Assembly: GCA_038049695.1 (NCBI GenBank)
Contig: CP142451.1
Location: 68,898,001 to 68,962,000 of the forward strand
DNA from: Cinnamomum chago
Lineage: Eukaryota; Streptophyta; Magnoliopsida; Laurales; Lauraceae
Direction: 5' to 3'
DNA: 64,000 bases
In this document: piece by piece, positions 6,932 to 58,684 of the stretch
Layout of the letters: each line of letters starts with the position of its first letter
Numbering within the stretch: the first letter of the stretch is position 1
Notes under the pieces: model-generated
Database searches by the model: none
Told to the model about the DNA's origin: nothing
Seen by the model: only the letters and a program-made list of their open reading frames with translations
Translations under genes and position numbers: made by a program

Positions 6932-7318
6932 TGTTAGAGTTTTTGTTTTGTTGCAATTTGATAGGATGCATTCACTTTCATAAGCTTGTCCTCTCATTCA
7001 TTCATGGTTTTATTAATAGGATCATCATGCATATTTCTTCTTCTTGAATCTTTGTTTTTATCATTTGATATGCATGGTTTTCATTTCAGATTTATCTCTT
7101 AGATCATGGAGTTTTTGATTTCAAAATCCATCCAAGCTTTCCAATGTTTCTATCTTTAAAATCATTATTTTGATTTGGAGGTTTCATGGTTTTAAAATCT
7201 CAGTTTTCATCTTCTTTCAGTCATGATTTAATGCTTGGATATGTGTCTCAAAGTCCCCCTTGAAGGTGCCCTCAAAAATTCAAGTTTCTAAAATCTGGGC
7301 TGTTTTTGCCAGTGTCGC

Positions 7319-7493
7319 CGGTCGACCGAGACCAGCTTCCCGGTCGACCGGGAACACTGTCGGGCGAGTCAGCAGTTTTTGAACTGTATCTTGCCAACGG
7401 TCAGAAATATGACCGTTGTGCTTTCTCGGTCGACCGAGACCCCTTTGCCGGTCGACCGAGGACTAGCCGTTGGCAACTTTTTCTTTATAAAAA
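7319..7493 (+). promoter_or_regulatory. LTR core promoter: four palindromes, MSA-like sites, TATA
   Basis: Four copies of CGGTCGACCG lie at 7319-7328, 7341-7350 (inside an 18-bp perfect palindrome, 7337-7354), 7427-7436 and 7449-7458. Between them is an inverted repeat CAACGGTCA (7395-7403) / TGACCGTTG (7410-7418), then TAGCCGTTGGC (7464-7474) and TATAAAAA (7486-7493). AACGG is the core of the mitosis-specific activator (MSA) element bound by MYB3R factors; regulation by them is inferred. The 3' LTR carries the same block with one change in the second arm. Confidence 0.6.
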
Positions 7494-8139
7494 GTGACTT
7501 TTTGGTTGAAGAAAGTTGCTGATCTTGGAGGGATTTTTGAGGCCAATTGTTTGCAACTTCTCAAGAGCATTTCTAAGGGGATTATGAAGCCATTCCATTA
7601 AACCAACCTTTGATCTTCAAATGGGTGTGCTTTCTTTAATCCTAGTCTTTTTGAAATCATGTTTTGTTTCAAATCTTTGATCTCTTTCTAAACATGATTA
7701 ACAAGTTGCTTTTCTTTTAGAATGTTGTCTTTCATAACATGCCTAATATCTTAGATATCTCATATGCTATGAATACAACATGTTGTCAATGTTTCACATG
7801 AAGTTGGTTTCTTGTTTCAATATAAACATGTTAGACTTAAATTTGTTTTCTTTGAAATCAAGTTAGTTTACCTTGTTAAATTCATGTGTTAGACAAATCA
7901 CTCTTTCTCAAACTTGTGTTTATCATCTTTGAATCATTTAAGATTGTATCTTTTCAAAAAGAGAAAGAGTAACTTCTAGAAAATGCATTTTACATAAACC
8001 TTGTCATTCACATGCATTTTTCTAGAACTTGACATTTTCACTTTCTATTGAGCCTATTTAGAGGCACTCTTTTGCAATCATATAGTTCTCTTAATCCATG
8101 CATTCTTAGGCATATTTCTTAAGAGAAAAATTCCTTGTT

Positions 8140-8212
8140 GTAAAGGTTCATGCTTAGCCCTGAAAAGCATATGTTGTAAAGGTTTATGCTTAGCCTTGAA
8201 AAGCATAGTGTT
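8140..8212 (+). repeat. two AGCCT-loop hairpin units in R-U5
   Basis: Two consecutive units of about 34 bp read 'atgctt-agccctgaa-aagcat' and 'atgctt-agccttgaa-aagcat', each preceded by 'ttgtaaaggtt'. Equivalent arrays with other stems are in the LTRs of elements 2 and 4. Confidence 0.75.
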
Positions 8213-8497
8213 GATTGTAAGGTTTGAGGTGATCCTAAACCTTAATTGAAGTTAGTGAATACCGGTAGGTGTACCGGGAGTGGATGTAGGCAATTTGGCC
8301 GAACCACTATATGTGCTTGTGTTATGGTGATTGTCTTTATGCTTTCTTTTTATGGATTATGCTCTCTTGGTTGATTTCATTATTCGTCTTCAAAGCATAA
8401 GAGACTTAAAAGCTAAAAGAATTAAAATTGGTCTAGGACTTTGAGCTCACCCTATTCACCCCCCCCCCCCTCTAGGATTCGATCTTGGACTTTCAAT

Positions 8498-15360: not shown

Positions 15361-15832
15361 TAGGAGACGTTGCCTTTGAGGAGGAGCGTCAGGAGGAGGC
15401 TTGTGAGCCAACCCCTGTGAGAGAGTGGCAGCCCGACGATGTCATTTAGACGTCGGGCGGGCTTGAGTCTCATCACCTTTTTGGCTTGGGGTTCCTTTAT
15501 TATTTTGAGAAGTGTATTGGCCTCTATTGGCCTCTTATGGGTTGTAACAAAACTTAACTTACTTTCGTGTTAGTCTTATAACTTGAACTATGTTGGGAAT
15601 GTCATTTTAACTTCTTCCTTTGATACTATGCCTTGTTATTATTTGTCGGAGCACTTAGAAATTTATTGGTGCTCATCTTGATGTGTTTTACTACACGCTT
15701 CCGCAAACTTGATCGTGTGAGCTAGATTCCACGTGCCTTTGGGAATCCTCACTGCGGGAACCTGTGGGAAAATATATCTCCGATGTACACAACGCACGTC
15801 GCGGGCCCGGGATCCGTTCCGGGGTCGCGACA
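15361..15832 (+). mobile_element. Tekay/Del-like solo LTR, right part
   Basis: It resumes the LTR of 4576-6931 after the copia insertion (first five bases are the TSD) and ends GGGGTCGCGACA. It matches the reverse complement of about 45514-46000 of the sister element. What follows (tt, then a new LTR at 15835) is not internal retroelement sequence. Confidence 0.85.
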
Positions 15833-16392
15833 TTTGTTAGGGATTTTGTATTTGCAATTTGATGGATGCATTAACATATTCACATCATTTGAATTTACAC
15901 TCATGCATTGTTTTAGAAAACCTTGAAATCTGGTTTTATACATGCATTGCTTTTAAGATTTGTAAAAGTATTGTTTTATGCATGTTTTGTTTCTAAACTT
16001 GGATGCATTGATTTTAGAATTCAAACTCTTTTGAAAACCTAATTCTTTGTGCATTACTTTTGTGAAATCATATTGAGAATTTAAGTTTGTGCCTTGCATG
16101 CATTCATCTCTTTCAGAATCATCTTTGTATGCATTTTTATGTGAAAAGAGTTTTTAGAAATCAAGCTAGCATTTGGATTTAAAGTTTCGAATCATTTTAG
16201 GCTCTTTGTGTTTCATGTTTTTAATCATCTTAGATTGATCTAAAACATGTTATTCAAGCTTGATTTAGTGGCCAAAAGTCCCCCCAAGAAATACTTTGAA
16301 AAGTTGCATTTTTGGGAAAACAGGACTTTTACCGGCGGACAAAACCACTTTTACCGGCGGTCTCTGTGTCCGCCGCTAAAAGTAGTTTTTCA

Positions 16393-16488
16393 AACGGTCA
16401 TTTTTTTTACCGTTGTGTGTTCATGGTCCACCGAGGCCTCTTTGCAGGTCGACCGAGGACTAGCCGTTAGGCACTTTTTGGCTATAAA
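16393..16488 (+). promoter_or_regulatory. element 2 LTR promoter with MSA-like sites and TATA
   Basis: aacggtca (16393-16400), accgttg (about 16409-16415), one decayed and one intact palindrome (ggtccaccga, then ggtcgaccga near 16448), and TAGCCGTTAGG (16461-16471), whose reverse complement CCTAACGGCTA fits the MSA consensus YCYAACGGYYA at every position. TATAAA is at 16483-16488. Confidence 0.55.
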
Positions 16489-17122
16489 GTCCATTCATTT
16501 CCAACCTTTTTCAAGGCTTGATACATGAACTTTTGAGACCATTTTGGAGCCAAGGAAAGGGGAAGAAGTTGGAAAGGCTAGAGGGCTATTTGGAAATCAA
16601 ATGCTTGAGTTTTAAAAAGGTACATCTTACTTATCATTTTGATTTCCATTAAAAGTAGAATCAATGCATGTTTAAATCTTTGTGTTTTCATTTATGCATG
16701 ATTTCTAGCTTTTAAAGAGTTGTTTTGCAAACTCATTATCTTCACTGGTATATTAGAATGGTTTGCAATCACTCTTATCCTAATCACATGTGTTCTTAGA
16801 CTTTAACATTCATACAACTTGTTTGTTTCATTTCTTCAAAGTTGTTTGAATCTTTTATGTGATTAGTTTTTATCTTCAATCATCATTTTATAAGCTTTGA
16901 TTTTAAAATGCATCATGCATTCATTTAAGAGCTTCATTGTAGAAATTGATTGAAGAAAATCATTCATACACTTGTGCACACACTTTAACTTGTTTTAGTG
17001 TATGTTTGTAATTTGAATTAAACTTTCATATTAGCCTATTTAAGAGGCAACTTCATTGAGCTTAATTTGTATCTCTTAGAGTGATCTTTTGTGAAGACAC
17101 TTTCTTAGAGAAATCTTTATTT

Positions 17123-17295
17123 GTAAAGGTTATTGCTTAGCCTAAGAAAAGCATCTTGTAAGGTTATTGCTTAGCCTAAGAAAAGCATCTTGTAAAGGTT
17201 ATTGCTTAGCCTAGAAAAGCACATTGAGAGGTTGTTGTTTAGCCTAGAAAAACAACATTGTAAGGGTTATTGCTTAGCCTAGTAAAAAGCATAAA
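17123..17295 (+). repeat. five AGCCT-loop hairpin units in R-U5 of element 2
   Basis: Units of 34-40 bp share the loop agcct(a)gaa. Most have TGCTT/AAGCA stems. The fourth has GTTGTTT (17234-17240) / AAACAAC (17250-17256) around the loop 17241-17249, a paired change relative to its neighbours. The 3' LTR has the same array at about 25655-25830. Confidence 0.8.
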
Positions 17296-17552
17296 TAGTG
17301 GAAATCTGGTGGGGTGATTAGATCACAAGCCGGTAGTGGATGTAGGCATTGAGGCCGAACCACTATAAACCTTGGTGTTGTGGTGTATGCTTGTGGTGAT
17401 TCTTTTATTAGCTTCCGCATCTTATTTGATTAATATCATCACATGTGACTAGTTATGTTAAGAAGTTAAAATTGGTTTAAATTGGTCATAATTGTAGCTC
17501 ACCCTATTCACCCCCCCCCCCCCTCTAGGGTTAGGATCCCAGGACTTTCAAT

Positions 17553-17564
17553 TGGTATCAGAGC
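17553..17564 (+). promoter_or_regulatory. primer-binding site of element 2
   Basis: TGGTATCAGAGC two bases after the LTR end; tRNA-iMet type, identical to that of the copia element. Confidence 0.92.
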
Positions 17565-17650
17565 CTCGTGCTCTAGCTTTTAGGATCAAGTGTTTGGAAC
17601 TCTGGATTAGGTGTAAAAACCTAGAGTTAAAACCCTAGAGTTGTGTTTTT

Positions 17651-19039
17651 ATGAAAATCATTAGAATGGACTCCACTATGCTAGACTTTGTAGATTCTTC
17701 TAGACCCCTCATTCTTCCATCTTATGGAGATTCAAATATTAAAATTAAAGAATCTCAACTTGAATTAAAAGAAGAAGAATTTGATGAATATGAAGCCTAT
17801 GAGGAATTGTACACATGGTCCTTAGAGGTTTCCAAGAAAAATAAAAGATTAAAAGAAGAATCTAAAAGGCTAAACCAAGAATTAGTCTCTTCTAAAAATG
17901 AACTTAGAGAAAAAGATGAATTCATAAATTGTGTAGAATCTAAGTTCATGATCTCTTTGGATAACCTTCATAATATTAAAGATGAACTAAAAGAATTAAA
18001 GATGGATTATGATAATGTCAATAAGGAAAATTTAAATCTAAGAGATCAAATAAAAAGGCAAGATGAAGACACTGACGATTTAGAATCCAAATTGATTAAA
18101 AGTAAGTTAAAAACTCAAGAACTTGGATCTAATGCCATCAATGAACTTAAACTTGAATTAAAACTTGCCAATGAAGAGCTAAACATTTTTAAGGGAATTG
18201 AAAATGAACTAACAAAAGTTAAAAATGAGAATTCAACCCTTAAAAACCAAGTCACTCAACTTGAAACCTATAAACAAAAGTATGAGTGCAAATTTACCCA
18301 AAGTGATGAGAAATTTGTAAAATTATTTAAATTGGGTAAATCTCAAAGAGATAGGACGGGTCTTGGATTTGATAGGAATATTTCACATGACCCTAAGTTC
18401 ACCAACACATTTGTGAAAGGTGAGTCCTCATTCTCTAGCACTCACACTTCTTTGCCCATGTCTAAATGTAATTATTGTGGCATTGAATGACACTTTAGGT
18501 TTGAGTGCAAACTAAGAAGAAGCAATGTGTCTAATCCCATCTTTGAACCAAAGAAAGTAAAATCAAATTTGAAGGGTAAGACACTAAAAACCAAGGAAGA
18601 CTCCATAAAGCTTAAACAAGTTAAACCAATTAACAAGGAGTCTCCTAAGATAGATTCTAAAAAGCTTAAACAAGTTAAACCAAAAATAAAACAATCTATT
18701 AACAAAAAGCTTCTCAACCTACCTCCCTTAAGTCAAAACATGAAAGAACTTTTGAAGAAAATTACAAAGTTAAATCTAAAATTCGAAAGTCAAAGAAAGG
18801 GAGAAAATAAGAAGAATAGAAAACAATCCCCTAAGAAGAAGAATCACCAACCTCAAAAGACTAATCACCAATCTAAGATTACATTAGTAAAATCTAAATA
18901 TAATGGTGATAAGTCTTAATTAAAAATTTATCAAGTCAAATCTCCAAAAGTTGGTGAGAATTCTAAGATAGACCTCAAAGATCAACCATCACAAGACCTT
19001 AGGTGGATTCCCAAAGTTTTATACTTAGACAAACCTTAA
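17651..19039 (+). pseudogene. Gag-derived coiled-coil frame with broken zinc knuckle
   Basis: One frame runs from ATG 17651 to TAA 19037-19039 with two internal stops (TGA 18488-18490, TAA 18917-18919). The first 279 codons are a lysine/glutamate-rich coiled coil that lines up with residues about 375-500 of the copia Gag-Pol (shared 'AYEELY', 'KKNK', 'ESKRL'). The TGA falls inside a CX2CX4HX4C knuckle (CNYCGIE, stop, HFRFEC), at the position normally glycine. A lysine-rich segment follows to 18916, then 'DLRWIPKVLYLDK' before the final stop. The usual Gag N-terminal domain and all enzymes are missing. By family knowledge the segment would mediate Gag assembly or RNA contact; whether the 279-aa product is made is unknown. 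The intact length of the coil suggests loss of function was late. Confidence 0.7.
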
Positions 19040-19049
19040 GGCCTTGGAC

Positions 19050-20830
19050 CTCATTGACCAACCTATGCTTTATAAGTTAAACCTTTTGTTGGTCATGTTG
19101 CTTTGCATTTTGTTCTTTCTTAGTTACATCTATTAAAATGCATTGTTTCTTTATGATCAATTGATTTTGTTTTCATGCACCATTCTAAGTTACATATCAT
19201 GGTTTTCAAAATCTTTTGATTATAATTTCATCATGTTTGATTTGCTTTTTGCACACATATGTCTTGCATTGCATTTCTTTACATGATTAATTGATTGTGT
19301 TTTTAAAAGCTTTCATAGCTAATTTATTCATGATCAATTGTTGTTGAATCATTTGTGTAGATGTCATAGTAAGATTTTTTTTTAACAAATGATTTGAATC
19401 AATTCAAGTTTTTCCATGGATTTCTAAGTTATACTTTTATATGGAAAATCATTGTTTTGAAAAATCAACTTGTATGTGTTTCATTTAAGTTATATCTTTT
19501 AAAATACAATGTTGAAAATTGATCTTCAAATTCATTCTTTTATGCTCATTGTTGGATTTTGTTTATTGAAATTATTTGAAGATTGTATGAATGGAAATGC
19601 TCTAAAACATCATTAGTTATTATCATCTAAGCATGTTCCATGTTCTCATTTCCTTTTCTTTTGGTTTCATTATCTTAGAATTGGAAATGAATGTCATTTG
19701 CATCTTTGCTTATTTAGTCATTCTTTTTATATGCAAATGTCAATTGTTCTATGTATGGTTGTTATCTTAGTTACATTTGTAGAAACCATACTAGAACTAA
19801 AATCCATCCTCTATGCACTCTAGTCATATCTTTTTGGATGGTTGTGATGTTGAATCATGTGAATTCTCTTGGTGTCATCCTTATACATGTTTCAACTTCA
19901 TAGTAGTGTTCTTAATCATATGAAACTCTTTGAAATCTATTCCTCATATTTTTATATGTTTGATGGATATCTTAGTTGTTGATTTCATATGATTTTGACA
20001 CTTTGGAAATTGCATGCTTTACCAAGTCATATTCTTTTGCATTGCAATTTACCTTGTTCATCACTATGCTTATTAGTTATATCTTTAAAAGTGATGAATA
20101 TGCATTTATGATGCTTGATGGAATTTTCTGTTTGTCACATCCTTGATCTTTTTCATGTTGTCAAATTCAATTGGTTTCATTTGGTATAATTTAAGATTGA
20201 TTTGATTTCCTATGAATGTGATAGACCTTGTGTGCATTGGATTAAACTTGATAGTAATATATTTGGTCCATGTCACACACCATTAGCATCATAATGTTCA
20301 TGTTTGCCACCTCTCTTGCTCTTATAGGTATATCTCATGACCACCATGTTTATGTGTTCATAATATGGGTTGGTTATTAGTTGAGGTTGGCTTCATGCTT
20401 GAATTTCATTTCACTCATCTTGCACATGATAAGTCATATTTATTGATTGAATGAAATGATTTTCAAAACCTTCATAGCATATGCTTTCCATAGTTAGATT
20501 ATTTGATGCTATGATTAATAAACCCCATTGCTTCATGGATAGCTCTAATTTGGATTTTTCCTAATAGTCATACTTTTAAATCCATTTTAGAGTGATTGAT
20601 TTAATAGTCATATCCTTAAATCTCAATTGGTATTCTTTGTTTTTCCAATTGGTATCCATGATTGCTTTTCCCATTAGACCTAGCTCTCTTTTGGTAATTT
20701 GATCATATTGAGCTTTATAGTTAAATGAATCTAATCCTTCTCTTGAAGTTGACCCTCAATTGGTTAAACCATCTTCTTCTTGCACCTAATAGTTAAATCT
20801 TTGTCAAAAGTTTGACAAAAGGAGATAATG
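19050..20830 (+). repeat. serial hairpin array with common loop motif (element 2)
   Basis: About 20 consecutive inverted repeats with different arms. Examples: TGACCAAC 19055-19062 / 19088-19095; TGCATTTT 19104-19111 / 19135-19142; AATCATTTGT 19347-19356 / 19385-19394; TTTTCCAT 19410-19417 / 19441-19448; ATCTTCAAAT 19522-19531 / 19574-19583; CATTTGCAT 19695-19703 / 19731-19739; GTTCTATGTATGGTT 19746-19760 / 19784-19797; AATCATATGAAA 19914-19925 / 19983-19994; TTCATCACT 20057-20065 / 20090-20098; TCATAGCAT 20472-20480 / 20506-20514. Most loops contain a motif close to TAGTYAYATCTTT. No reading frame is present. The function is unknown; a structured RNA is the natural reading. Confidence 0.75.
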
Positions 20831-20965
20831 GATTGAGGGGGAGTGTAAACCTTCATAGGAAGTATTAGTTTTGATCAAATTGACCCTTGGATTGCCTTTG
20901 AGCCCTTAGAGATAACTTCCATACATGTTAGCCTGTTATGATTATCATTTTCGATTTCTTTTGTT

Positions 20966-21411
20966 AACAGGTGCTACTAAAGGTATTTTCCTTATTTCAT
21001 GTGTGTAGGTACCTTTGCAATTTAATGTCAAAGGGGGAGAGAGAGTTCAAGTACTCAAAGATCTCCTACTCTTCAAAGGGGGAGAAAGCATTCAAGTTCT
21101 CAAGAGGGGAAGAGAGAATGCATATCTTGCCAAAGGGTGAGAGAGGCATGGTCAAAGGGGAAGAGCTTATAGAAGAAAGAAAGCTTGGAGCTAAAGAAGA
21201 TGCTTGGCCAAAGAAAGGAAGATGAATAGAAAGCTTGAAGATTGATCAAGCACCAAGCATCAAGAAGATTGAAGAAGAGAGCCCAAGAGCCCAAGCTAAG
21301 AGGAGGAGCATCTAAGAAGATTTCAAGACTTGTCCAGCTTAGGGGGAGCTGAAGACTTGTTGTGTTAATTCAATGATAAGTAAGTTGCCATCAAATTGCA
21401 AAGGGGGAGAT
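20966..21411 (+). promoter_or_regulatory. conserved 3' block and multiple polypurine tracts, element 2
   Basis: Opens with 'aacaggtgctactaa' (20966-20980), then 'gtgtgtaggtacctttgcaa' and repeated 'caaagggggaga' tracts at about 21030, 21075 and 21400. The last adjoins the 3' LTR at 21412. Short frames here (for example 20971-21225) are low-complexity and not credible genes. Confidence 0.6.
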
Positions 21412-22004
21412 TGTTAGGGATTTTGTATTTGCAATTTGATGGATGCATTAACATATTCACATCATTTGAATTTACACTCATGCATTGTTTTAGAAAACCT
21501 TGAAATCTGGTTTTATACATGCATTGCTTTTAAGATTTGTAAAAGTATTGTTTTATGCATGTTTTGTTTCTAAACTTGGATGCATTGATTTTAGAATTCA
21601 AACTCTTTTGAAAACCTAATTCTTTGTGCATTACTTTTGTGAAATCATATTGAGAATTTAGGTTTGTGCCTTGCATGCATTCATCTCTTTCAGAATCATC
21701 TTTGTATGCATTTTTATGTGAAAAGAGTTTTTAGAAATCAAGCTAGCCTTTGGATTTAAAGTTTCGAATCATTTTAGGCTCTTTGTGTTTCATGTTTTTA
21801 ATCATCTTAGATTGATCTAAAACATGTTATTCAAGCTTGATTTAGTGGCCAAAAGTTCCCCCAAGAAATACTTTGAAAAGTTGCATTTTTGGGAAAACAG
21901 GACTTTTACCGGCGGACAAAACCACTTTTACCGGCGGTCTCTGTGTCCGCCGCTAAAAGTAGTTTTTCAAACGGTCAATTTTTTTACCGTTGTGTGTTCA
22001 TGGT
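21412..22004 (+). mobile_element. 3' LTR of element 2, first segment
   Basis: Matches 15835-16430 with scattered substitutions, up to the insertion point of the solo LTR. The last five bases (atggt, 22000-22004) are the target site. Confidence 0.9.
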
Positions 22005-24955
22005 TGTCGCGACCCCGGACCGGGAATCCCAATCCGGGATCGGGACATTAGTGTGTGATGATTATTCAAGAGGATTATCTACATCCACAATACACAATTT
22101 ATTAAATTTCCCACAGGTGTCCGCGGTGAGGATTTCACAACCTTGCATGAATATTTCTTTTTAGTGCGGAAGCATGTAGCAAATCAAATAGTCAGACTAT
22201 CTCTAGTCATGCAAGCATTAATATCAAATGTCAAAACTGTATCAGAAAGAGCAATGATCTATAGCATGTTTCCCAAAGGTTGTTAAAGTTAGACAAAATA
22301 TCATTTAGTTACATCCCCCAAAATTAGAGGCCAACAAAGGCCAATATTACAAAATAATAACCCAAAGAATAGTTAACAAGTCCTTCCCAAAATGTTACGC
22401 CTCTTGGCAACCCGATGTCTACATGACATCGTCAGCACGCCACTCAACTAGAGGCTGCAGCTCACCTACCGCCTCCTCCGGCTCCTCCTCAAGGAAACCG
22501 GCAACGGGACCTGAGTACCAAAGCAAAGGATCAGACACGACGGTCTGGCAAGAGAGTGGGAAGATACAACAACATAAAATAGATGAAATATCTCGAAAAG
22601 CAAGGAAATCTGTTAAAGCAAGAACTCTCATAAAATAGATAAATCATTTGCTAGAAACATGTAAACAAGATAAAACATATGAGGTAACCAAGGGAATCGG
22701 GAATAACAAGGTGGCAATCACATAAAGCTAAGTCCTCTGTCACTAAAGTGACAACAGTATCACGGGACGTTGATCTCAGTCACACAAGGTGAGGAGAAGC
22801 AACGTAAACATATATACAGTATAAATATACGGGAACGGGACCACGGTAGCGAACCGGGTATCGGGACGGGACCACGGTAATGACCGGGTATCGGGATCCA
22901 AACTGCAGCTGGCGGGACGGGAGAGGGATTTCCAAGTCGGTGGATCAAACCGACAAGGTATCCAAGCTTAGTGATGCCGACTCATAGGATAAATAACACA
23001 TCGAGACATATGCAAGTAAATAAAGTGCAAGTAAATCAATGAACGGGCAAGAATATTCAATATATAACTTTCATTTCTTATCGGGCAATACTCTTCGGGA
23101 CGAGTCCATGTTACTAGTGTAACCATCAAGCTTTCGGGAAAACAGATTATGTAAAGTAAATCTTGGAAAAGAAGAAATAAAATGAATTATTACAATTCCG
23201 GGAAAATATTGATTTCAAGATCTATTTAAGTGAATAGGGGTCCCGTATGTCAACTATTGAAATAATTTGGTACTCCTTGAGTTTGAAGACATTCCGGGCT
23301 CCTTATGCACTTTTACTATTTTTAAAACTTAATATGAGCTTATGGATAGTACTAGATGCTATGATAGAAGAATCAAGACCATAACGGTCCATCCTAAGTA
23401 TGATGTCAACCCGGAACCATCGAGCAACCTACTCAGTCACCGAAAGGAATTGAATTCGCGATACCAAAGGAAATAGACTTTGCATTTAGGTATGAAGAAG
23501 GTATCGTGTCGTTCCATCCCGTTCAAGATTGAAATAGATTGAACTTCGATGCATTCCGAACCAACCATGAAGAGCATCGGCTCAAGACGCTCTCACATAT
23601 GGTCAAGTGAGTCCAAGGAGGGTAGCCAAGGTCCACAAAAAAAAAAAAATTCTCAAAACCCACTGTTCGGACCGAAGGTCCGATCGATCGGCCCAAAAAG
23701 CCTTACAGTTAAAAGTCAGACCGATCGATCGGCACTGGGCGTGAAGCATGCCCGGGAACTGGATTTTTCTCCTTTTTGTTTCCTTTCCTTCCAACACCTC
23801 AACAACCACAAATAACTATGAACAAGGTGACTTAAACACATGATTCCAAGACATTAAATGAGGTTATCAAGATGTGTAAAGATCATTTATTTCAACCATG
23901 GAAAAATCAATGAAAATAATCAATGAAAGCATGAAAACCATAAATACTTCACCAAACCATTTCAAACTTAAAAACATCCGAACATTCACTTGCCTCAAGT
24001 CCAAGCTAGCCAAAAACAAGCCTCTACTCACTTCTTAAGCTTACTTCCAAGCTACAATCAAAAACCCCAAAAACAACCCTAAAATGGGTTACACAAGGAA
24101 TGAAAATGAAATAACTTCCAATAATGCAAATGTAGCTTCCCTAAGGCTAGAAGATCACTAATCTAGGAGATGAATAAGATCACTTACTTGCAAGGTCCCC
24201 TAATGGACAATGTAAGCTCAAGGGAAGTCTCAAAGTTGATGGATTCTTCTAAAAAATAGTATCAAGAGGAAGCTTGTGAGATGAGGAAGAGATTGGTAAT
24301 CTCCATTTCTTGATTGATGAGCTCTTGGTGAGACTTGGAGATGGAGAAGCAAGAAGAAGGAAAGAAAAGCAAGGAAGAACCCTAGACTCAATAGTTGTGC
24401 TGGAACATGAAAATGGAGAAGGAAGGGAAGGGTTCCTCTTTGTTAACACTTGGGTGGTTGGGTCCCACAACTTAAAGAACTACGTTGGCTGAAATCATCT
24501 CTCTCGGGTCCTCGGATGAATTCGACGAAGAAGGAAGAAATGTTCGTCGAAATATCTAGTTTCCAAAAAGTGTATGTTTCGCGAGTTTCGAGAATATTAA
24601 GTTTTGGGAACAGATTTGGTGTGAAATGACTGTTTTACCCTCAAGGCTATGAAATCAGGTTTCGGGGCCTCGAATGGACACGGGATCAACATGAAAGTTG
24701 TAAGAATCCACAAGATGAATGCAACGGGCCAAAAACACAATTTAAAACACGTCGGGAAAATTTCATAAGAAAATGCAAAGCCGAAAAAAAAAGGGAACCC
24801 CCAAAGGGCCCCACAAGCTATCAATCACTCCAAAAGGCCCAAAACTAGAATCAAGGCTATTCCAAACCCAACTAGACCAAAAACACTAATCAAGCTTAGC
24901 ACTAACACGCCACTTAATTAGCACTAAACGGGTTCACTCGGGTCGGGGTCTTACA
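22005..24955 (-). mobile_element. solo LTR, Tekay/Del-related, with perfect TSD
   Basis: 2951 bp. On the minus strand it starts TGTAAGACCCCGACCC and ends GGTCGCGACA, matching the ends of the Tekay-like LTR family in this window, but it is divergent in between. It is flanked by atggt at 22000-22004 and 24956-24960. No internal sequence or second LTR, so it is the product of LTR-LTR recombination. Contains two CCGATCGATCGG palindromes. Short frames inside (for example 23549-23815) are not supported as genes. Confidence 0.92.
23680..23732 (-). repeat. pair of CCGATCGATCGG palindromes
   Basis: Perfect 12-bp palindromes at 23680-23691 and 23721-23732, about 1.2-1.3 kb from the LTR 5' end. This is the same offset as the CGCTCGAGCG and CGGTTAACCG arrays in the two sister LTRs. 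Confidence 0.85.
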
Positions 24956-24960
24956 ATGGT

Positions 24961-26038
24961 CGACCGAGGCCTCTTTACAGGTCGACCGAGGACTAGCCGT
25001 TGGGCACTTTTTGGCTATAAAGTCCATTCATTCAGACCTTTTTCAAGGCTTGATACATGAACTTTTGAGACCATTTTGGAGCCAAGGAAAGGGGAAGAAG
25101 TTGGAAAGGCTAGAGGGCTATTTGGAAATCAAATGCTTGAGTTTTAAAAAGGTACATCTTACTTATCATTTTGATTTCCATTAAAAGTAGAATCAATGCA
25201 TGTTTAAATCTTTGTGTTTTCATTTATGCATGATTTCTAGCTTTTAAAGAGTTGTTTTGCAAACTCATTATCTTCATTGGTATATTAGAATGGTTTGCAA
25301 TCACTCTTATCCTAATCACATGTGTTCTTAGACTTTAACATTCATACAACTTGTTTGTTTCATTTCTTCAAAGTTGTTTGAATCTTTTATGTGATTAGTT
25401 TTTATCTTCAATCATCATTTTATAAGCTTTGATTTTAAAATGCATCATGCATTCATTTAAGAGCTTCATTGTAGAAATTGATTGAAGAAAAGCATTCATA
25501 CACTTGTGCACACACTTTAACTTGTTTTAGTGTATGTTTGTAATTTGAATTAAACTTTCATATTAGCCTATTTAAGAGGCAACTTCATTGAGCTTAATTT
25601 GTATCTCTTAGAGTGATCTTTTGTGAAGACACTTTCTTAGAGAAATCTTTATTTGTAAAGGTTATTGCTTAGCCTAAGAAAAGCATCTTGTAAGGTTATT
25701 GCTTAGCCTAAGAAAAGCATCTTGTAAAGGTTATTGCTTAGCCTAGAAAAGCACATTGAGAGGTTGTTGTTTAGCCTAGAAAAATAACATTGTAAGGGTT
25801 ATTGCTTAGCCTAGTAAAAAGCATAAATAGTGGAAATCCGGTGGGGTGATTAGATCACAAGCCGGTAGTGGATGTAGGCATTGAGGTCGAACCACTATAA
25901 ACCTTGGTGTTGTAGTGTATGCTTGTGGTGATTCTTTTATTAGCTTCCGCATCTTAATTGATTAATATCATCACATGTGACTAGTTTATGTTAAGAAGTT
26001 AAAATTGGTTTAAATTGGTCATAATTGTAGCTCACCCT
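24961..26038 (+). mobile_element. 3' LTR of element 2, second segment, truncated
   Basis: Continues from the TSD atggt with 'cgaccgaggcc', a perfect MSA-type site (reverse of CCCAACGGCTA), TATA and the AGCCT hairpin array, then stops at 'gctcaccct', before the C-tract and LTR end present in the 5' copy. A CACTA terminus starts at the next base. Confidence 0.88.
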
Positions 26039-26925
26039 CACTACAAGAAACTTGACATTTAGCGGCGACTTTTTTTACCGCGGTCTAATTTTCGCCACTA
26101 AAAACCCATATTTAGTGGCAAATATTTGATGTTGCCACTGAAGACATTATAATGCCCACATTTAGTGGCAACTTATATGTTGTAGCTAAATTTCGCCACT
26201 AATTCCTTGGCAGGAATTTTTGGCGCCATGGGATTTTGGAGGGAAAGAGATTTAGTGGCAAATCTTAATTTATCGCCACTAATGGTGTACGGTTTTAGTG
26301 ACAACTTTTTATGATCGCCACTAATTTCTTAGATTCTTACATTTAGCCGTAGTATATTTTTTGTCACTGTATGTTCTATTTTTTGTGGCTAGTTTATATT
26401 GCCACTAAAGATATATCACAGGAAAGTTGACTTTTAATGGCAACACTTTTTGCTATAATTTAATTTTCGCCACTAAAAACTCACCTTTAGCGGCGAAGCT
26501 GGATGTTGATACTAAAAGTATTATGTGATCACATTTAATGACAACTTATATGTTGTAGCTAAAGGTCATTTTGAAGGGAAAGGAGATTTAGTGGCGAGTT
26601 TTCTTTTTGTGCCACTAATGGTCTAGGAGTTTAGTGGTAACTTTTTATTTTCGTGGCTAAATGCTTAGTTGTCGTGATTTCGCCACCTTTTGCGGCGACT
26701 TTCTATTGCCACTAAAAATATATTATATGAAAGCCAGCTTTTAGTGGCGACACTTCTAGCCACAAAGTTATTTTTGCCACAAAACACTCACTTTAGTGAA
26801 GGTATTATAGTGATTACATTTAGTGGCAACTTATATGTTGTGGCTAAAGGTCATTTTGGAGGGGAAAGAGAATTAGTGGCGAGTTTTAATCTTTTACCGC
26901 TAATGTGGTCCCAAAGCTAAATCAA
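26039..26925 (+). mobile_element. CACTA (En/Spm-type) transposon terminus with subterminal repeats
   Basis: Begins CACTACAAGAAAC, the hallmark CACTA terminal inverted repeat. The next ~880 bp contain over a dozen copies, in both orientations, of ttTAGTGGCaa / ttGCCACTAaa and variants. Such subterminal arrays are where CACTA transposases bind. The other terminus is not in the window. If it lies beyond 64000, the intervening host-like sequence and the two gypsy elements are inside it. The 3-bp TSD would be cct. Confidence 0.8.
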
Positions 26926-34527: not shown

Positions 34528-34994
34528 ACTTTTTTTTTAGGAATTTTCTCTATTCTTCGATGTAATTTTTCTTCTTTAAGTGCACAGAGATCATGTAATC
34601 GTACTTCCTGATTAATGAAAAGAAGTTCTTTTTCAATCTTGCTGTTTCTCTTCTTTGCTTCTTCTTTTGCAACGGTCTGTGGATGCTCTGATGTGAGGTG
34701 ATGTCCAAAGTGGATGAGGTCGGTAGGAGGGGCCTGCCTCGGGCAGACCTTTTCCAGTCTCGGAAGACTAGGTTGTCCCTTTCCTACTTTTGAATTTCAG
34801 CGAGTAAGCGAGTCATGCTGTCGTTTGACCGAGGGTTAGGCCTTAATGGCATATCTTTGAGGGGGAGGTTCCCAGGGTGAAATGGTGGCGAGCCCCCGAC
34901 TTACATGCCGGGGTTCAGCTGAGGCCGTGCTCCCACGGTCTAGGTGAGACCCTAGGGTAGGCCGAGTTCCGCGGTCAGACGCCGCAGAGGACGC
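34528..34994. other. 3' flank of the opposite-strand gene
   Basis: Noncoding on both strands. T-rich 'gacttttttttta' follows the stop codon, and 'taattttt'/'attaatgaaaag' may serve as a polyadenylation region near 34560-34620. No canonical AATAAA. Confidence 0.4.
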
Positions 34995-35445
34995 CTCTTG
35001 GTCAGTTGGCCCTGCAACCGAACTCGAGGAGGGTGGCGCGAGGGCCGGAGCCTTGCGGAGTTGGTCCTAAGACCGAACTCAAAGAGGATGGCGCGAGGAC
35101 CGGATCCTTGCGGAGTTGGTCCTACGACCGAACTCAAAGAGGATGGCGCGAGGGCCGGATCCTTGCGGAGTTGGTCCTACGACCGAACCCAAAGAGGATG
35201 GCGCGAGGGCCGGATCCTTGCGGAGTTGGTCCTACGACCGAACTCAAAGAGGATGGCGCGAGGGCCGGATCCTTGCGGAGTTGGTCCTACGACCGAACTC
35301 AAAGAGGATGGCGCGAGGGCCGGATCCTTGCGGAGTTGGTCCTACGACCGAACTCAAAGAGGATGGTGCGAGGGCCGGATCCTTGCGGAGTTGGTCCTAC
35401 GACCGAACTCAAAGAGGATGGCGCGAGGGCCGGATCCTTGCGGGG
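34995..35445. repeat. 55-bp minisatellite, about eight units
   Basis: The word gcgcgag or a one-base variant recurs at 35036, 35091, 35146, 35201, 35256, 35311, 35366 and 35421, exactly 55 bp apart. The unit contains 'ggccggatccttgcggagtt' and 'ggtcctacgaccgaactc'. Inner units are almost identical. Because 55 is one more than a multiple of three and no unit frame has a stop on the plus strand, overlapping frames of 133-178 codons stay open in all three phases. It lies between the convergent ends of the two coding units. Tat 3' regions are known as hot spots for new tandem repeats. Confidence 0.92.
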
Positions 35446-35513
35446 ATCGAAGAAATTCAAGGCAAATCTGTGTCAAAAGGTTCTTCTTTATTGATCAAAC
35501 ATCTCGAATACAG

Positions 35514-53357: not shown

Positions 53358-53428
53358 TGTCGCGACCCCGGAACGGATCCCCGGGCCCGCGACGTTGGTT
53401 TGGTGATGATTACTACTATTGAAGATTT
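53358..53428 (-). mobile_element. remnant of the 5' LTR of the Tekay-like element
   Basis: 71 bp matching 45514-45584 of the 3' LTR with one difference, ending at the element 4 insertion (possible TSD gattt, 53424-53428). Confidence 0.88.
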
Positions 53429-53820
53429 TGTTAGGAATTTTGTAGATTGCAATTTGATGGATGCATTTCATTCAAGCATCATTTGATTTACACACTTGCA
53501 TTGGTTTTAGAAAACTTGAAATCTTGTTTTATTCATGCATTGGTTTTAAGATTTGTAAAAGTATTGATTTATGCATGATTTGTTTTTTCATCTTGGATGC
53601 ATTTGATTTAGAAAAGAGTTTTCAAGAAATCAAGCAAGCCTTTGTTTTAAAAGTTTTGAATCTTTTTAGGCTTTTTATGTCATGTTTTAAAAACCATTAG
53701 AATCTTTAAAACATGTTTTCCAAGCTTGATTTAGTGGCCAAAAGGTCCCCCAAAGAAATAACTTTGAAATGACAAAAGTTGGATTTTTTGTCAAAAGGGG
53801 GGTTGTCCCGGCAGTGTCGT

Positions 53821-53983
53821 CGGTCGACCGAGAGGCAGGTCTCGGTCGACCGAGACAACTGCAGGCAAAAATTGCCTGGGAGCACCAACGGTCAGAAATA
53901 TGACCGTTGTGTGTTCTCGGTCGACCGAGGCCTGTTTCTCGGTCGACCGAGAACTAGCCGTTGGCCACTTTTTCCTATAAATA
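53821..53983 (+). promoter_or_regulatory. element 4 LTR core promoter
   Basis: CGGTCGACCG at 53821-53830, 53843-53852, 53918-53927 and 53940-53949. The second and fourth sit in 18-bp perfect palindromes (53839-53856 and 53936-53953). Inverted repeat CAACGGTCA 53886-53894 / TGACCGTTG 53901-53909; TAGCCGTTGGCC 53955-53966; TATAAATA 53976-53983. Repeated at +5256. MYB3R control is inferred. Confidence 0.6.
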
Positions 53984-55247
53984 TGAGTTCTTTCCCTTGC
54001 CAAAAGTTGGGAATTTTTAACCCCTCCTTGAGAGGATTTGAGGCATATCAAAAGGGAAAAGAACCAAGGGATGAAGGGGATGATTAGGAAAGCTAAAGCT
54101 TGGATTAATGAAGTTAAACTACCAAGTAGGCTCTTCCTTTCTTAATCATATGTTTGCATGCTCTTGTTTTATTTTTGGTAAATCATTTCTAGCATGTTAA
54201 ACTATGTTTGTGTTGTGTCCTTAACATATTTTATGTTTTGAGTTGATTTATTGTTTTGGATATAACATCACATGATTCAATCCAAGTAGTACTTGAATTG
54301 GTAAATCAAAGTAGATCATGTTAATGAAAGAACTTTGGTAAATCATATGTAACATGATCCATATACTTGGTTGAATCTTTGGTTGTTGTTTTCCATCATA
54401 AGAACATCTCTCTCAAAACTAACTTATGTTTTGGATTCAACTTCTTTACAAATCATATGTTTTCATGTTTTGTTTTATCATTGGTAAATCTTTGTAACAT
54501 GTTAATCTATGATTTGTTGTATCCTTAGCATATTCTATATTTTGAATAGATCTATTGTTTTGGATACATCACCATTGATTCATCAAAGTAGTACTTAACT
54601 TTGGAAAATCTAAGTAGATCATGTTAATGAAATATGTAACATGATTCATATACTTTGTTGAATCTTTGGATGTTGTTCTTCCATCATAAGAAAATCTTTT
54701 TCAAATGTATCTTATGTTTTGGATTCAACATGTTTACAAATCATATGTGTATTATTGTTTTAATGCTTCACAACTTGCCTTACTTTGATTGGTAAATCTT
54801 TTTCAAGTTGTCTTTATAATTACATATGATTTGTCCCCTAATTTCAATCAAATCTATTTTTATGTTTTGAGCTTCATTGGTGATTTGATTGACATCCCTA
54901 TGCATCACATGTTTAGAGCTAATCCATTTCATACAACTTGTGTAACTTTGATATCATTAACAAGTTGTTACTTTTAACATGTGATTGCATCATATCCTCA
55001 ATCATAAATGTGTTATGAGCTAAAACTTTCAAAAGCCTTAGGCTTACATTTATGAGCTTTCATTTTCAAAATGATTGAGGACCACACACACACACTTCAT
55101 TTGTTTTCATCTTTGCATTCATAGTGTGAGTGTGTATTTGTATTTCACTTCCATATCCGCCTATTTTAGAGGCATTGTAATGAGCTTAATAGAATCTCCA
55201 TCAAGTGTATTATAGACACTAATTTAGAGAGATAACCAACCATGTGG

Positions 55248-55415
55248 TTGAAGAGGTTATTGCTTAGCCTATAAAAGCATAGTGTATAGGTTGATGTTAA
55301 GCCTTGAAAAACATCATTGTAAGGTTATTGCTAAGCCTTGGAAAGCATATTGTAAAGGTTATTGCTAAGCCTTGGAAAGCATATTGTAAAGGTTATTGCT
55401 TAGCCTATTGAAAAG
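55248..55415 (+). repeat. AGCCT-loop hairpin array in R-U5 of element 4
   Basis: Five units; stems include TGCTT/AAGCA types and GATGTT 55293-55298 / AACATC 55310-55315 around an aagccttgaaa loop. Repeated at +5256. Confidence 0.78.
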
Positions 55416-55673
55416 CATAAATAGTGGAAATCCGGTGGGGTGTTGGATCACAAGCCGGTAGTGGATGTAGGCATTGAGGCCGAACCACTATAAATCCTTG
55501 TGTGATGGTGCTTGCTTTGTGGTGATTGTTTATATTAGCTTCCGCATATTGTTTGATAATCATCACTTGTGACTAGTTTGTTTTAAAGAAGTTAAAATTG
55601 TTAAAATTGGTCATAAAAGAAGCTCACCCTATTCACCCCCCCTCTAGGGTTCGGATCCCCATGGACTTACAAG

Positions 55674-55685
55674 TGGTATCAGAGC
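55674..55685 (+). promoter_or_regulatory. primer-binding site of element 4
   Basis: TGGTATCAGAGC two bases after the LTR end; the second copy is at 60930-60941. Confidence 0.92.
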
Positions 55686-55829
55686 GGGTTACTCCATTTT
55701 AGGGCTTAACAACCCGGAGTTGATCCTTGCTAGATTTGAACCCTAGTGTTGTGTTTATTGCATATCTTTGTTAAAAGATTTCCACTATGTTTGAAAATAA
55801 TTTCCCTAGCCTCATTGCACCACTCTAAG

Positions 55830-58100
55830 ACTTTCTCAAGTTATATCTTCTAGAGTTGGTGAGTCCTCAAAGTGTTCTCTCTTGGACAACCTTTTCAAGA
55901 CCTTAGGTGAATTTTCAAAGGTAGACTATTTGAGTAACCTTAAGGCCTTGATCCCACTAGACCGACCTATTCTTTTTAGTTATATCCTTTTGTTGGTCAT
56001 GTTACATTTGCATTTTGTTTCTTTATAGTCACATCTTTTAAAATGCAATGTTTCTTTGTGATCATTTGATTTTGTCTTCATGAACTTTTATAGTTATATC
56101 TCATGGTTTTCAAAATCCTTTGATTGCAACCTTTTCATGATGGATTTGCATTTTGATCATATAGTTATATTTCTTGTAGTGCATATCTATTCATGATCAA
56201 TTGATTGTGATTACAAATGCTTTCATAGCTAGTTTTTCATGATCAATTGATGTTGTAAAATCATTTGATGTTTGTCATAGTTACATCCTTTTTGTAAATC
56301 AAATGATTTGAAGCTATTTTAGTTTTCCATTGAGTTTTCAAAGTTATATCTCTTGGTATGGAAACTTAGTAAGTGTCTATTGTTTTATAATTTGAAAACT
56401 TTACAATAGTACACTTCTTGTTTTTCAAAATCACTTGCTCTTAATTCTATAAATGATTCTTTGTTGGAATTTCATAAATTGTAGTGATTTGAGAAACTTT
56501 GGAAAATGTTCTAAGCCTTATTGGTTGTATTTATAGAAGCATTTTCCTTGAATTTATTTCCTTGTGCTTAAATATGATTTTATCATTTGAAAGGAAATAA
56601 TGTTTACAAACAATTTGCATCTTTGCTCATTGAGTTACATTCTTTATGCAAATTGATTTTGATGTCTTACATTGCATGGTTGGATATGGTTTCATTAATT
56701 TGCATGTTTGTGCCTAACTTGGTATATTCTCATTAATGCATTTTGATGATTGGTTATGTGCTTTATAGTAAAATCTTGTTTTTGAGCTTTTTAAGTACAT
56801 ATGTGATTTTATGTGCTAAGTTCATTTGGTATAGACCTCATATCCTTTTCCATTGCATTGTAAGCTTAGGACATTTGCTAAGAGTGGAGATGTTGCATGA
56901 TAGATTGATCCTTTTATCTTCATACCTTCTTGTGCTAAAATAGTTATATTCTTTTTAATGATATGGTATGAGTTAGATCTTGAATGTTGATTAATCCTCT
57001 CTATGCAAATGTCAAATCGTTCTATGTATGGTAGTGGTATTGATTACATTTGTAGAAACCATACTAGAACTAAAATCCATCCTCTATGCCTTTTAGTCAT
57101 TTCTATTTGGATGGTTATGATGTTGATTCATGTGTATTTTCTAAGTGATTTCATTCTTATACATGTTTCAACTTCATAGTAGTGATCTTGATCATATGGA
57201 ACTCTTTGAAATCCATTCCTCATATTTCTATATGTTTGATGGACATCTTAGATGTTGAATTCATATGATTTAGTCACTTTATAAATTGCATGCATTACAA
57301 AGTAATATCCTTTTGCATTGCAATTTACCTTGTTCATCACTATGCTCTATAGTTATATCTTTAAAAGTGATGAATATGCATTTATGATGCTTGATGGAAT
57401 TTTGTCACATTCTTGCTCTTTATCATGTTATCAAATTCAATTGGATTCAATTGGTATAATGTTTGATTGATTTGATTTCTTGTGAATGTGATAAATCTTG
57501 TGTGCATTGGATTGAACTTGATAAGTAATATGGTTGTTCCATGTCACACACCATTAGCATCATTATGCTCATGTTGCCACCTCTCTTTGCTCATATAGGT
57601 ATATCTCATGACCACCATGTTTATGTGTTCATAATATTGGTTGGTTATTAGTTGAGGTTGGCTTCATGTTTGAATTTCATTTCACTCTTTCATGCACCTT
57701 AATAAGTCATATTTATTGATTGAATGAAATGATTTTCAAAATCTTACATAGCATATGATTTTCTTAAGTAATATTGATTGATGCTATGTTTGAGTAAACC
57801 CCATATCATGGATAGCTCTAATTTGGATTTTTCCTAATAGGTATATTTTTAAATCCATTTTAGAGTGATTGATTTAAATAGTCATATCCTAAATCTCAAT
57901 TGGTATTCTTTGTCTTTCCAATTGATATCCATGATGGCTTTTCCCATAGACCTTGCTTTCTTTTGGCAATTTGATCATATGAGCTTGATAGTTAAATGAA
58001 TCTAATCCTTTCTTTGAAGTTGACCCTCACTTGGTTAAACCATCTTCTTCTTGTACCTAATAGTTAAATCTTTGTCAAAAGTTTGACAAAAGAAGAGAAT
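55830..58100 (+). repeat. serial hairpin array with common loop motif (element 4, first copy)
   Basis: Same design as 19050-20830. Examples: AAATCATTTGAT 56258-56269 / ATCAAATGATTT 56298-56309; AAGTGTCTATTGT 56371-56383 / 56403-56416 (one bulge); AAATCACT 56428-56435 / 56483-56490; TTATTTCCTT 56554-56563 / 56591-56600; CAATTTGCAT 56611-56620 / 56646-56655; GTTCTATGTATGGT 57019-57032 / 57058-57070 (one bulge). Loops often contain AGTYAYATC. No credible reading frame. Confidence 0.75.
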
Positions 58101-58236
58101 GGATTGAGGGGGAGTGTAAACCTTCATAGGAAGTATTAGTTGTGATCAAATTGACCCTAGGATTGCCTTTGAACCCTTAGAGACTACTACCTCACATGAT
58201 AGCCTGTTATGGATTTCATCTTCGATTTCATTTGTT

Positions 58237-58684
58237 AACAGGTGCTACTAATGGTATTTTCCTTGTTTCATGTGTGTAGGTACCTTTGCAATTTAATGGC
58301 AAAGGGGGAGAAATTATGCAAGTTCTCAATAGGGTGAAGAGAATGTCCAAGCTTCCTAAGGGGAGAGTTGTGTATGATCTTCTACAAAGGGAGAGAATGC
58401 ATAGCTTGCCAAAGGGAGAAAGAGGCATGGTCAAAGGGGGAGAGCTAATAGAAGAAAGAAGCTTGGAAGCTAAAGAAGATGCTTGGATAAAGAAAGAAAG
58501 AAGAAAGAAAGCTTGAAGAGTGATCAAGCTCCAAGCATCATGAAGATTGAAGCCCAAGAGCCCAAGCAATGAGAAGGAGCATCCAAGAAGATTTCAAGCC
58601 TTGTCCAGCTGAGGGGGAGCTGAAGACTTAGTGTGTAATGTTCAGTGGTGAGTGAGTTTGCCATCAAATTGCAAAGGGGGAGAT
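58237..58684 (+). promoter_or_regulatory. conserved 3' block and polypurine tract, element 4
   Basis: 'aacaggtgctactaa' at 58237-58251, 'gtgtgtaggtacctttgcaa' at about 58271, repeated G-rich tracts, then 'aaagggggagat' (58673-58684) before the next LTR. The second copy is at 63493-63940. Confidence 0.6.

Follow-up and report, generated by a model that had tools for sequence, protein, structure and literature searches.

A train of selectively maintained hairpins with a recurrent loop motif in a non-autonomous LTR retrotransposon group of Cinnamomum chago: a possible RNA packaging platform

The question raised by this locus is what a row of hairpins does in the internal region of a long terminal repeat (LTR) retrotransposon. 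The window, that is, the whole stretch analysed here, comprises 64,000 nucleotides of Cinnamomum chago (GenBank assembly GCA_038049695.1, contig CP142451.1, positions 68,898,001 to 68,962,000 of the forward strand), and all coordinates refer to it. It contains three elements considered below, and in element 2 the first-pass annotation had described a train of hairpins with changing stems and one recurring loop motif at 19050–20830. We find in the linker of this element an array of 24 consensus stem-loops (19055–20592), in which the hairpins exist, the motif has a near-fixed position in the loop, the stems are protected, and changes to G-U pairs are tolerated above changes to A-C. The array may serve as a multivalent docking (packaging) platform for a Gag-type protein in a non-autonomous group of Sireviruses, a reading to which, arguing largely by analogy, we assign a probability of about 0.45. 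The array, its hairpins, the open reading frame (ORF), LTRs, primer-binding sites and polypurine tracts (PPT) named below are all on the plus strand.

The train itself is real. Perfect inverted repeats of at least 8 bp (loop 5–75) number 15 in 19050–20830, compared to 4.15 ± 1.73 in dinucleotide shuffles, none of 60 shuffles having as many. The local minimum free energy (span 120) is −393.7, the shuffled value being −289.8 ± 12.5, that is, it is 104 kcal/mol lower (z −8.3, 0 of 60). Hence neither folding nor inverted-repeat density, the quantities by which the first-pass annotation proposed to judge its claim, resembles that of shuffled sequence. The pairs 19055/19088, 19347/19385, 19914/19983, 20057/20090 and 20472/20506 that it named are exact; at 19746/19784 there is indeed a hairpin, but its perfect core lies at 19753–19760/19784–19791. 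The array of element 3 (55958–58100, with a second copy at 61214–63356) folds with z −12.3, and those of three further sub-groups with z −8.6 to −9.6. As controls, the pol gene of element 1 (z +0.9; 5 inverted repeats, 6.0 in shuffles) and the PPT region (z −0.2) show no excess. Stems flanking matches to the loop motif (at most 3 mismatches) beat flank shuffles at p<0.05 in 11 of 20 cases in element 2 (Fisher 7e-14) and in 12 of 26 in element 3 (Fisher 2e-12); in two control stretches outside the elements, 2 of 8 matches with at most 2 mismatches also had p<0.05. The consensus hairpins tile 90% of 19055–20592, although end-to-end tiling, being partly seen in any locally folded sequence, is not counted as evidence. 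Rfam yields no match to a known RNA family, such as the hammerhead of retrozymes, at the gathering score in the 64 kb, and two sub-threshold matches fall in 15800–26100, the best with 27.3 bits at a cut-off of 50.

The recurrent loop motif is close to TTAGTYAYATCTTT and is situated 8–12 nt into a loop of 23–28 nt, on stems of differing sequence. A choice of hairpins by stem only (at least 8 bp, loop 19–31) is fairer than a motif-anchored test. Of ten loops chosen in this way in element 2, eight contain AGT[ACT]ANA, compared to 0.29 in shuffled loops and to 1.8 in random segments taken from the region (this count being reached in 0 of 300), and five contain the stricter AGTYAYA (again 0 of 300 random segments as many). 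Elsewhere the looser word is present in 6 of 9 stem-chosen loops of element 3, 7 of 8 in the copy L051, 4 of 7 in L057 and 6 of 10 in L052; the counts of the stricter one are 4, 2, 1 and 3, respectively. The five arrays are homologous, so that these counts are not independent. In all but two of the 31 motif-bearing stem-chosen loops (29 of 31) the motif lies 8–12 nt from the 5' arm, and all motif matches (at most 2 mismatches) within the arrays are on the plus strand. An alignment of units picked by the motif (A1) was set aside, its invariant columns being circular.

The 24 tabulated hairpins are those among 29 top-level consensus hairpins that end by 20592, the other five being omitted. In what follows, p is the strength of the flanking stem compared to flank shuffles, and divergence is that among copies; the stem diverges less than the loop in 20 of the 24. 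Hairpin 1 (19055–19095) pairs TGACCAAC with GTTGGTCA around the 25-nt loop AGTTAAAC, and hairpin 2 (19104–19142) pairs TGCATTTT with AAAATGCA around TAGTTACATCT (p=0.002). Hairpin 3 (19151–19225) has 21 bp with internal loops and apical AGTTACATATC, the divergence being 1.1% in the stem and 4.9% in the loop. Hairpins 4 (19230–19287) and 5 (19289–19339) are without the motif, and in the latter the stem diverges by 0.5% and the loop by 10.3%. Then come hairpins 6 (19347–19394; AATCATTTGT/ACAAATGATT, p=0.001), 7 (19399–19460; inner stem TTTTCCAT/ATGGAAAA, p=0.009) and 8 (19465–19515; loop AAGTTATATCTTT, weak, p=0.17), the stem of the last being no more conserved than its loop. The motif is absent from hairpins 9 (19522–19583; ATCTTCAAAT/ATTTGAAGAT, long loop) and 11 (19647–19689; CATTTCC/GGAAATG), while hairpin 10 (19591–19641) has no AGTNANA in element 2. 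Hairpins 12 (19695–19740; CATTTGCAT/ATGCAAATG, loop TAGTCATTC, p=0.001) and 13 (19745–19798; GTATGGTT/AACCATAC, loop TAGTTACATTT, p=0.002) are followed by hairpin 14 (19801–19844; CCATCC/GGATGG, loop TAGTCATATCTTT, p=0.010), with a stem no more conserved than the loop, and by hairpin 15 (19843–19902), without the motif. In hairpin 16 (19905–20002) the outer stem AATCATATGAAA/TTTCATATGATT encloses a long branched loop; the 57-nt loop of 19914/19983 is a poor match to the motif. Hairpins 17 (20005–20053; AAATTGCA/TGCAATTT, loop AAGTCATATTCTT, p=0.003) and 18 (20057–20098; TTCATCACT/AGTGATGAA, loop TAGTTATATCTTT, p=0.001; stem divergence 0.5%, loop 5.5%) precede hairpin 19 (20135–20221), which has no motif and lies in a weak region (z only −1.6 at 20141–20340), the weak hairpin 20 (20229–20279), whose stem is no more conserved than the loop, and hairpin 21 (20299–20397), large, branched and without the motif. 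The last three are hairpin 22 (20398–20467; TTGAATTTCATTTCA/TGAAATGATTTTCAA), hairpin 23 (20468–20519; TCATAGCAT/ATGCTATGA, loop TAGTTAGATTATT, p=0.001), again with a stem no more conserved than the loop, and hairpin 24 (20543–20592; CTCTAATTTGGATTT/AAATCCATTTTAGAG, loop TAGTCATACTTTT, p=0.011).

Conservation was assessed in copies found in the 1.06-Gb genome; we fetched 30 of 40-odd element 2-type places, 10 of 40 places of the element 3 family, and 12 of 85 scored ORF loci. To define stems, the majority sequence of the alignment columns was folded with Watson-Crick pairs only. In a set of 29 copies of the element 2 type, from which the tandem duplicates L015 and L016 are left out, stems diverge from the majority by 1.90% and other sites by 5.19%; circularly shifted stem masks give 3.93 ± 0.29, and none of 390 shifts is as low. 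In the element 3-type family (11 copies) the values are 1.11% and 3.34% (0 of 441 shifts as low). If selection acts during element replication, variants common to several copies should be depleted most. The ratio of variant density in stems to that outside is 0.61 for singletons, 0.53 for variants seen in pairs of copies and 0.33 for those in at least three copies of the element 2 family; the corresponding values for the element 3 family are 0.61, 0.59 and 0.18. For variants in at least three copies, a parallel run gave ratios of 0.30 in the array, 0.67 in the ORF and 0.93 in the PPT region, and for singletons 0.58, 1.04 and 0.81. Thus the array stems are depleted of singletons too, as would be expected only with some of these predating insertion; since the LTR pairs of three copies are 97.7–99.0% identical, both pre- and post-insertion singletons are likely present.

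The array as a whole changes slowly as well. Among six copies (L031–L035 and element 2) its divergence K is 0.056–0.101, with 0–1% gaps, whereas that of the LTRs is 0.069–0.356 and exceeds the array in all 15 pairs. Synonymous divergence of the ORF (dS by NG86, four intact copies) is 0.087–0.276, above the array in 6 of 6 pairs, the closest being 0.070 for the array and 0.087 for the ORF. The PPT-region K, 0.048–0.168 in the six copies, overlaps the array range. Some of the difference from the LTRs could be due to their exchange among sub-families, which would leave the contrast of stems and loops unexplained. We conclude that the array stems are protected by selection.

When a transition hits a Watson-Crick pair, the sense RNA is left with either G-U or A-C at that place; strand-symmetric mutation should make the two outcomes equally frequent. 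In ten sub-group sequences, with helices of at least 3 bp, there are 49 changes of the G-U type and 28 of the A-C type. Compared to expectation by unpaired-site rates, G-U-type changes occur at 0.63, A-C-type changes at 0.31 and transversions at 0.42 (G-U vs A-C, p=0.0019). A genome-wide search for hairpin 1 with the loop AGTYAYAT, a pattern that excludes element 2's own loop, gives 2,191 exact copies and none with the reversed-pattern control. If 3'-arm transitions (A-C type) are permitted, 25 further copies appear (control 4); for the mirror-image transitions of the 5' arm (G-U type) the gain is 83 copies (control 3). The excess of G-U leads us to lean towards the array acting in the sense RNA.

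Double changes that keep pairing are also in excess over the ten sub-groups: 20 cells were observed, compared to 10.4 ± 2.2 when letters are re-dealt (as many in 0 of 500), and the number of pairs was 13, compared to 6.95 ± 1.6 (1 of 500 re-deals). By this measure the excess that the first-pass annotation asked for is present across sub-groups, but not between elements 2 and 3 alone, where strict stems contain no compensatory pair. Double changes are supporting evidence only, because the re-dealing of letters ignores relatedness and the LTR alignment has 26 such events. The paired fraction is 0.95 compared to 0.34–0.42 in slid controls; these controls are meaningful for paired fractions alone, since slid reference pairs are not Watson-Crick, and are unfit for double changes. 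In sum, the data support that part of the annotation's reading in which a non-autonomous element of the copia type carries a structured, selected RNA with variable stems and a recurrent loop word.

Element 2 extends from the 5' LTR at 15835–17550, with a TG start, a CA end and a polyC stretch at 17511–17523 near its 3' end, to the 3' LTR at 21412–26038, which is broken by a nested insertion (22005–24955) and lacks its last 45 bp. The LTR repeat pairs 15834–16427/21411–22004 and 16423–17505/24956–26038 are 99.3% and 98.7% identical. The primer-binding site TGGTATCAGAGC is at 17553–17564. Five PPT octamers AGGGGGAG (20836–21409; starts 20836, 21032, 21077, 21341 and 21402) cluster near the 3' LTR; the last, 21402–21409, is precisely 10 bp before it, with AT at 21410–21411 and TG at 21412. 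A perfect inverted repeat of 15 bp, 21388–21402/21428–21442, flanks the terminal PPT and the 3' LTR start (21388–21442). The insertion is of 2.95 kb, begins with TG and ends with CA, and is flanked by the 5-bp duplicate ATGGT, and hence is of the LTR type. The 3' LTR breaks off at 26039, where the sequence begins with CACTACAAGAAA, which we take to be similar to the end of a CACTA transposon.

These features are largely those of Sirevirus, a genus of Ty1/copia (Bousios et al. 2010, PMC2829016). The marks described in that paper are a PPT 10 bp before the 3' LTR, the AT/TG site, PPT copies in the linker, the junction inverted repeat, polyC near the LTR end, and a coiled coil and CCHC in Gag, and the group has likenesses to all of these. 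The array follows the gag-derived frame, that is, it occupies the Sirevirus linker position. The group differs from Sirevirus in that element 2 has no pol, the linker is a hairpin array, and of the large Gag with a central CCHC and a downstream coiled coil only the half with the coiled coil and the second knuckle is present. The internal region of element 2 contains a single ORF of at least 150 aa, without a Pfam domain, and no pol; in 12 of 12 copies the 2.4 kb downstream of the ORF has no tblastn match to the element 1 Gag-Pol. We identify the array region as the linker of a large, non-autonomous group of Sireviruses (Ty1/copia). A hairpin array is not among the conserved motifs listed in the relevant part of PMC2829016 (PPT cluster, PPT inverted repeat, CGG-CCG boxes, TATA, junction, integrase signal).

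The gag-derived frame of element 2 (17639–19039) encodes a coiled coil, a CCHC zinc knuckle of the form CX2CX4HX4C and a Lys-rich tail, and has in-frame stops at 18488 and 18917. It is intact in four related copies, L032 (471 aa), L033 (470 aa), L034 (478 aa) and L035 (528 aa), and dN/dS in their six pairs is 0.29–0.54 by NG86 and 0.46–0.69 by YN00; the intact ORF is under purifying selection. The protein matches a part of the element 1 Gag, the coiled coils being 44% identical over 73 aa, whereas DNA likeness of elements 1 and 2 is limited to the vicinity of the LTR end and primer site (70–72%) and to 125 nt within the LTRs (65%). In five ORF proteins Pfam matches the knuckle in four, above the curated cut-off only in P0002, and finds a capsid-type gag domain in none. 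With P0002, itself a relative of this ORF, at least 85 scored loci are found in the genome. The protein database yielded four relatives, and no DNA relatives were found in collections of viral contigs and genome contigs.

Element 3 (53428–58683, repeated at 58684–64000) is a tandem of the form LTR-internal-LTR-internal, with copies 99.98% identical. Its primer-binding site is at 55674–55685, with a second copy at 60930, and the PPT cluster at 58107–58682 contains five octamers (58107, 58303, 58435, 58612 and 58675). Except for a decayed end it has no ORF, yet it keeps the array and the PPT cluster. Since this ORF-less element retains the array and its family has at least 40 copies in the genome, the array probably serves in cis. 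Tandem sets of 2–4 units, 5.20–5.35 kb apart, hold 22 of 40 scored places of the family, and a tandem arrangement is likewise seen in ORF-type copies and in a 3.4-kb mini-element.

The arrays of elements 2 and 3 differ over a part of their length (19450–19730 and 56365–57010) and contain 16 and 18 strict inverted repeats, respectively. Among 57 fetched loci, 52 have the exact hairpin 1 stem GACCAAC/GTTGGTC; L054 has it with one G-U pair, as does the window's element 3, and it was not found in L014–L016 and L034, which together form one tandem array. Hence hairpin 1 is nearly constant, while the other hairpins vary in number among sub-groups. Of 12 divergent ORF-bearing copies with the downstream region fetched, six carry the array. 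A second non-autonomous layout (L046–L049, L054, L056) consists of the coiled-coil/CCHC ORF, a short array-like stretch and a further ORF, with no match to pol within 2.4 kb. The further ORF of the L046 type at first seemed env-like; in the two tested (L047, L054) Pfam instead assigns it to PF20167, 'Putative plant transposon protein'. Boxes of the CGG/GTCGAC type were read by eye in L046 and L054.

Large retrotransposon derivatives (LARD) and terminal-repeat retrotransposons in miniature (TRIM) are non-autonomous LTR elements, the former without internal coding capacity, and TR-GAG elements are non-autonomous, with an ORF for a gag domain and no pol. The group described here resembles TR-GAG in being non-autonomous and pol-less with one gag-related ORF, but Pfam sees only the zinc knuckle and not the capsid gag domain, and an array lies 3' of the ORF. 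It differs from LARD and TRIM in its ORF-bearing members and in the constrained hairpin train with a recurrent loop, although it is likewise non-autonomous and forms tandem LTR-internal arrays, as in element 3, for which Cassandra TRIM elements are known (PMC7215508). The first-pass description of element 2 as a LARD whose coding sequence was replaced does not hold, as it keeps the broken gag-derived frame, which is intact in four copies; element 3 alone is LARD-like.

Satellite tobacco necrosis virus (STNV) is a satellite dependent on a helper. For the STNV coat protein, PMC3593212 describes a preference for ACAA in the loop, whatever the sequence of the stem, and the packaging-signal model of small RNA viruses is outlined in a review (PMC6281560). 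The array shares with such dispersed signals many stem-loops with one loop motif (14 of 24 by the looser word) and free stem sequence. It differs in belonging to an LTR retrotransposon and in having the hairpins packed in one non-coding block, and the protein contact here is a proposed one. In anatomy, then, the array appears to match packaging-signal systems, class membership hinging on binding. Among the papers listed by literature searches, none describes an array with constant loops and variable stems in an LTR retrotransposon, an absence that carries little weight.

By analogy with these systems, the array would act at the level of the sense RNA, as a series of stem-loops among which many display one loop motif, and the loop would be recognised by a Gag-type RNA-binding protein. 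The two candidates for this partner are the Gag of a helper, an autonomous Sirevirus, and the coiled-coil/CCHC protein from ORF-bearing members. Through many weak loop contacts the RNA might be compacted and more readily taken up into particles that the element does not encode. A Gag-type partner and packaging seem likeliest, because the element must borrow a particle and its relatives encode a Gag-derived coiled-coil/zinc-knuckle protein. A bolder version, which we regard as doubtful, is that a satellite-like lineage turned the linker into packaging-signal hairpins outbidding the helper RNA for Gag, its fitness being set by loop specificity and hairpin number rather than by coding sequence.

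Several observations weigh against the packaging reading. The partner protein is a guess. Element 1 has no motif match with at most 2 mismatches, helpers not having been sought systematically, and was rejected as the helper; nothing marks it as such, and the view of element 2 as a parasite of this copia element is not borne out. AGT[ACT]ANA occurs in only 14 of the 24 tabulated hairpins, and AGTYAYA is not in excess over random segments in L051 (2 of 8; 42 of 300 as many) and L057 (1 of 7; 146 of 300). The full array is not indispensable, since the 3.4-kb tandem mini-element L058 retains just six or seven hairpins from the start of the array and then jumps to the PPT region, and the other six of the 12 divergent ORF-bearing relatives have about 450 bp of array-like sequence, then sequence of higher GC. 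The strand test fades with stricter helices (p=0.050 at ≥4 bp, 0.077 at ≥5 and 0.32 at ≥6), and within the two families the counts are unclear, 31 vs 21 events in at least two copies and 37 vs 43 singletons. The 83 and 25 variant copies of hairpin 1 include related and tandem copies, at least four of the 83 forming one tandem array. Pairing-keeping double changes are no rarer in the more divergent LTR alignment (26 events) than in the array (12). The ORF stems also are somewhat depleted of shared variants (0.67), the whole-ORF K (0.051–0.109) is similar to that of the array, and a lower mutation rate in stems may contribute to the depletion of singletons.

Folding, too, is unspecific. The ORF region (17551–18920) has z −5.7, and its coding RNA may be structured as well; the two LTRs tested (elements 1 and 2) have z −6.0 and −8.4. 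With the opposite strand of 19050–20830 at z −8.6, local structure is confined neither to the array nor to one strand, and folding alone cannot single out the array because the ORF and the LTRs also fold below shuffles. Under alignment shuffling the mean z is −4.8 in the ORF region and −4.4 in the array; consensus folding z-scores (down to −9.2) were therefore dropped as specific evidence.

The alternative that survives best, which we consider possible rather than probable, is that the same selected sense-RNA hairpin train has another job, such as dimerisation, nuclear export or retention, stability, control of ORF translation or hiding from silencing. All evidence of selection on RNA pairing fits it equally, and hairpin 1 begins 15 nt past the last stop codon of the ORF frame. 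However, the near-fixed recurrent loop word suggests a repeated recognised site, not mere compactness, and translation control fails for the element 3 array, which has no ORF.

An improbable explanation is a function at the DNA level, with cruciforms or hairpins of single-stranded cDNA acting in recombination, integration or chromatin. It would agree with folding of both strands, with frequent recombination in the tandem LTR-internal arrays and with the properties of the LTRs, which are rich in inverted repeats (14 compared to 3.5 in element 2, 15 compared to 2.75 in element 1) and have slightly spared stems (variable sites 0.44 vs 0.52, p=0.0018) along with their double changes. What it does not account for is the asymmetry of G-U and A-C changes in the array, as the LTR alignment of eight sequences shows none (63 vs 67).

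Hairpins of 40–80 nt are numerous in the LTRs (6932–8495, 15835–17550, 53428–55640); three in element 3 (54314, 54448, 54770) have the GGTAAATC word in the loop, and its hairpin-bearing LTR stretches 54144–54477 and 54451–54762 are direct duplicates at 81%. We considered the LTR hairpins as a part of the array system and rejected this, given stems only slightly spared and no strand asymmetry.

Still less credit is due to snap-back copying, that is, template switching in reverse transcription that keeps creating hairpins without function, which the first-pass annotation had offered as its alternative. Every stem is a different word, and the arrays of elements 2 and 3 are partly unlike, as this process would have it; but it predicts neutral decay of stems, which in fact change at about 0.3–0.6 of the rate of unpaired sites in the region, and no common loop, whereas many loops carry one motif. 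It fails as the sole cause, though it may supply raw material. Finally, a folding artefact of an old tandem repeat and AT-rich composition can practically be dismissed: AT-rich sequence does give many weak hairpins, and any local fold tiles the sequence, but the dinucleotide shuffles, shifted masks and frequency classes are all contrary, and the element 1 pol gene and the PPT region have no excess folding energy.

Elsewhere in the window, a 55-bp tandem repeat is present at 34942–35491 within a GC-rich element at about 31–42 kb, apparently of the gypsy type, as judged from its ORFs.

The array bears on the question of how non-autonomous LTR elements load their RNA into particles encoded elsewhere. 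If the bolder version of the packaging reading is true, no multivalent array of this kind would have been described before in an LTR retrotransposon. The group offers natural length variants: L058 has six or seven hairpins, element 2 has 24 and element 3 a somewhat larger number, and in a third layout there is a short stretch. Given these, the stem-level selection and the loop word, the packaging model could be tested with a single protein and short RNAs made in vitro. More generally, internal regions of retrotransposons labelled 'non-coding' or 'LARD' can be constrained RNA.

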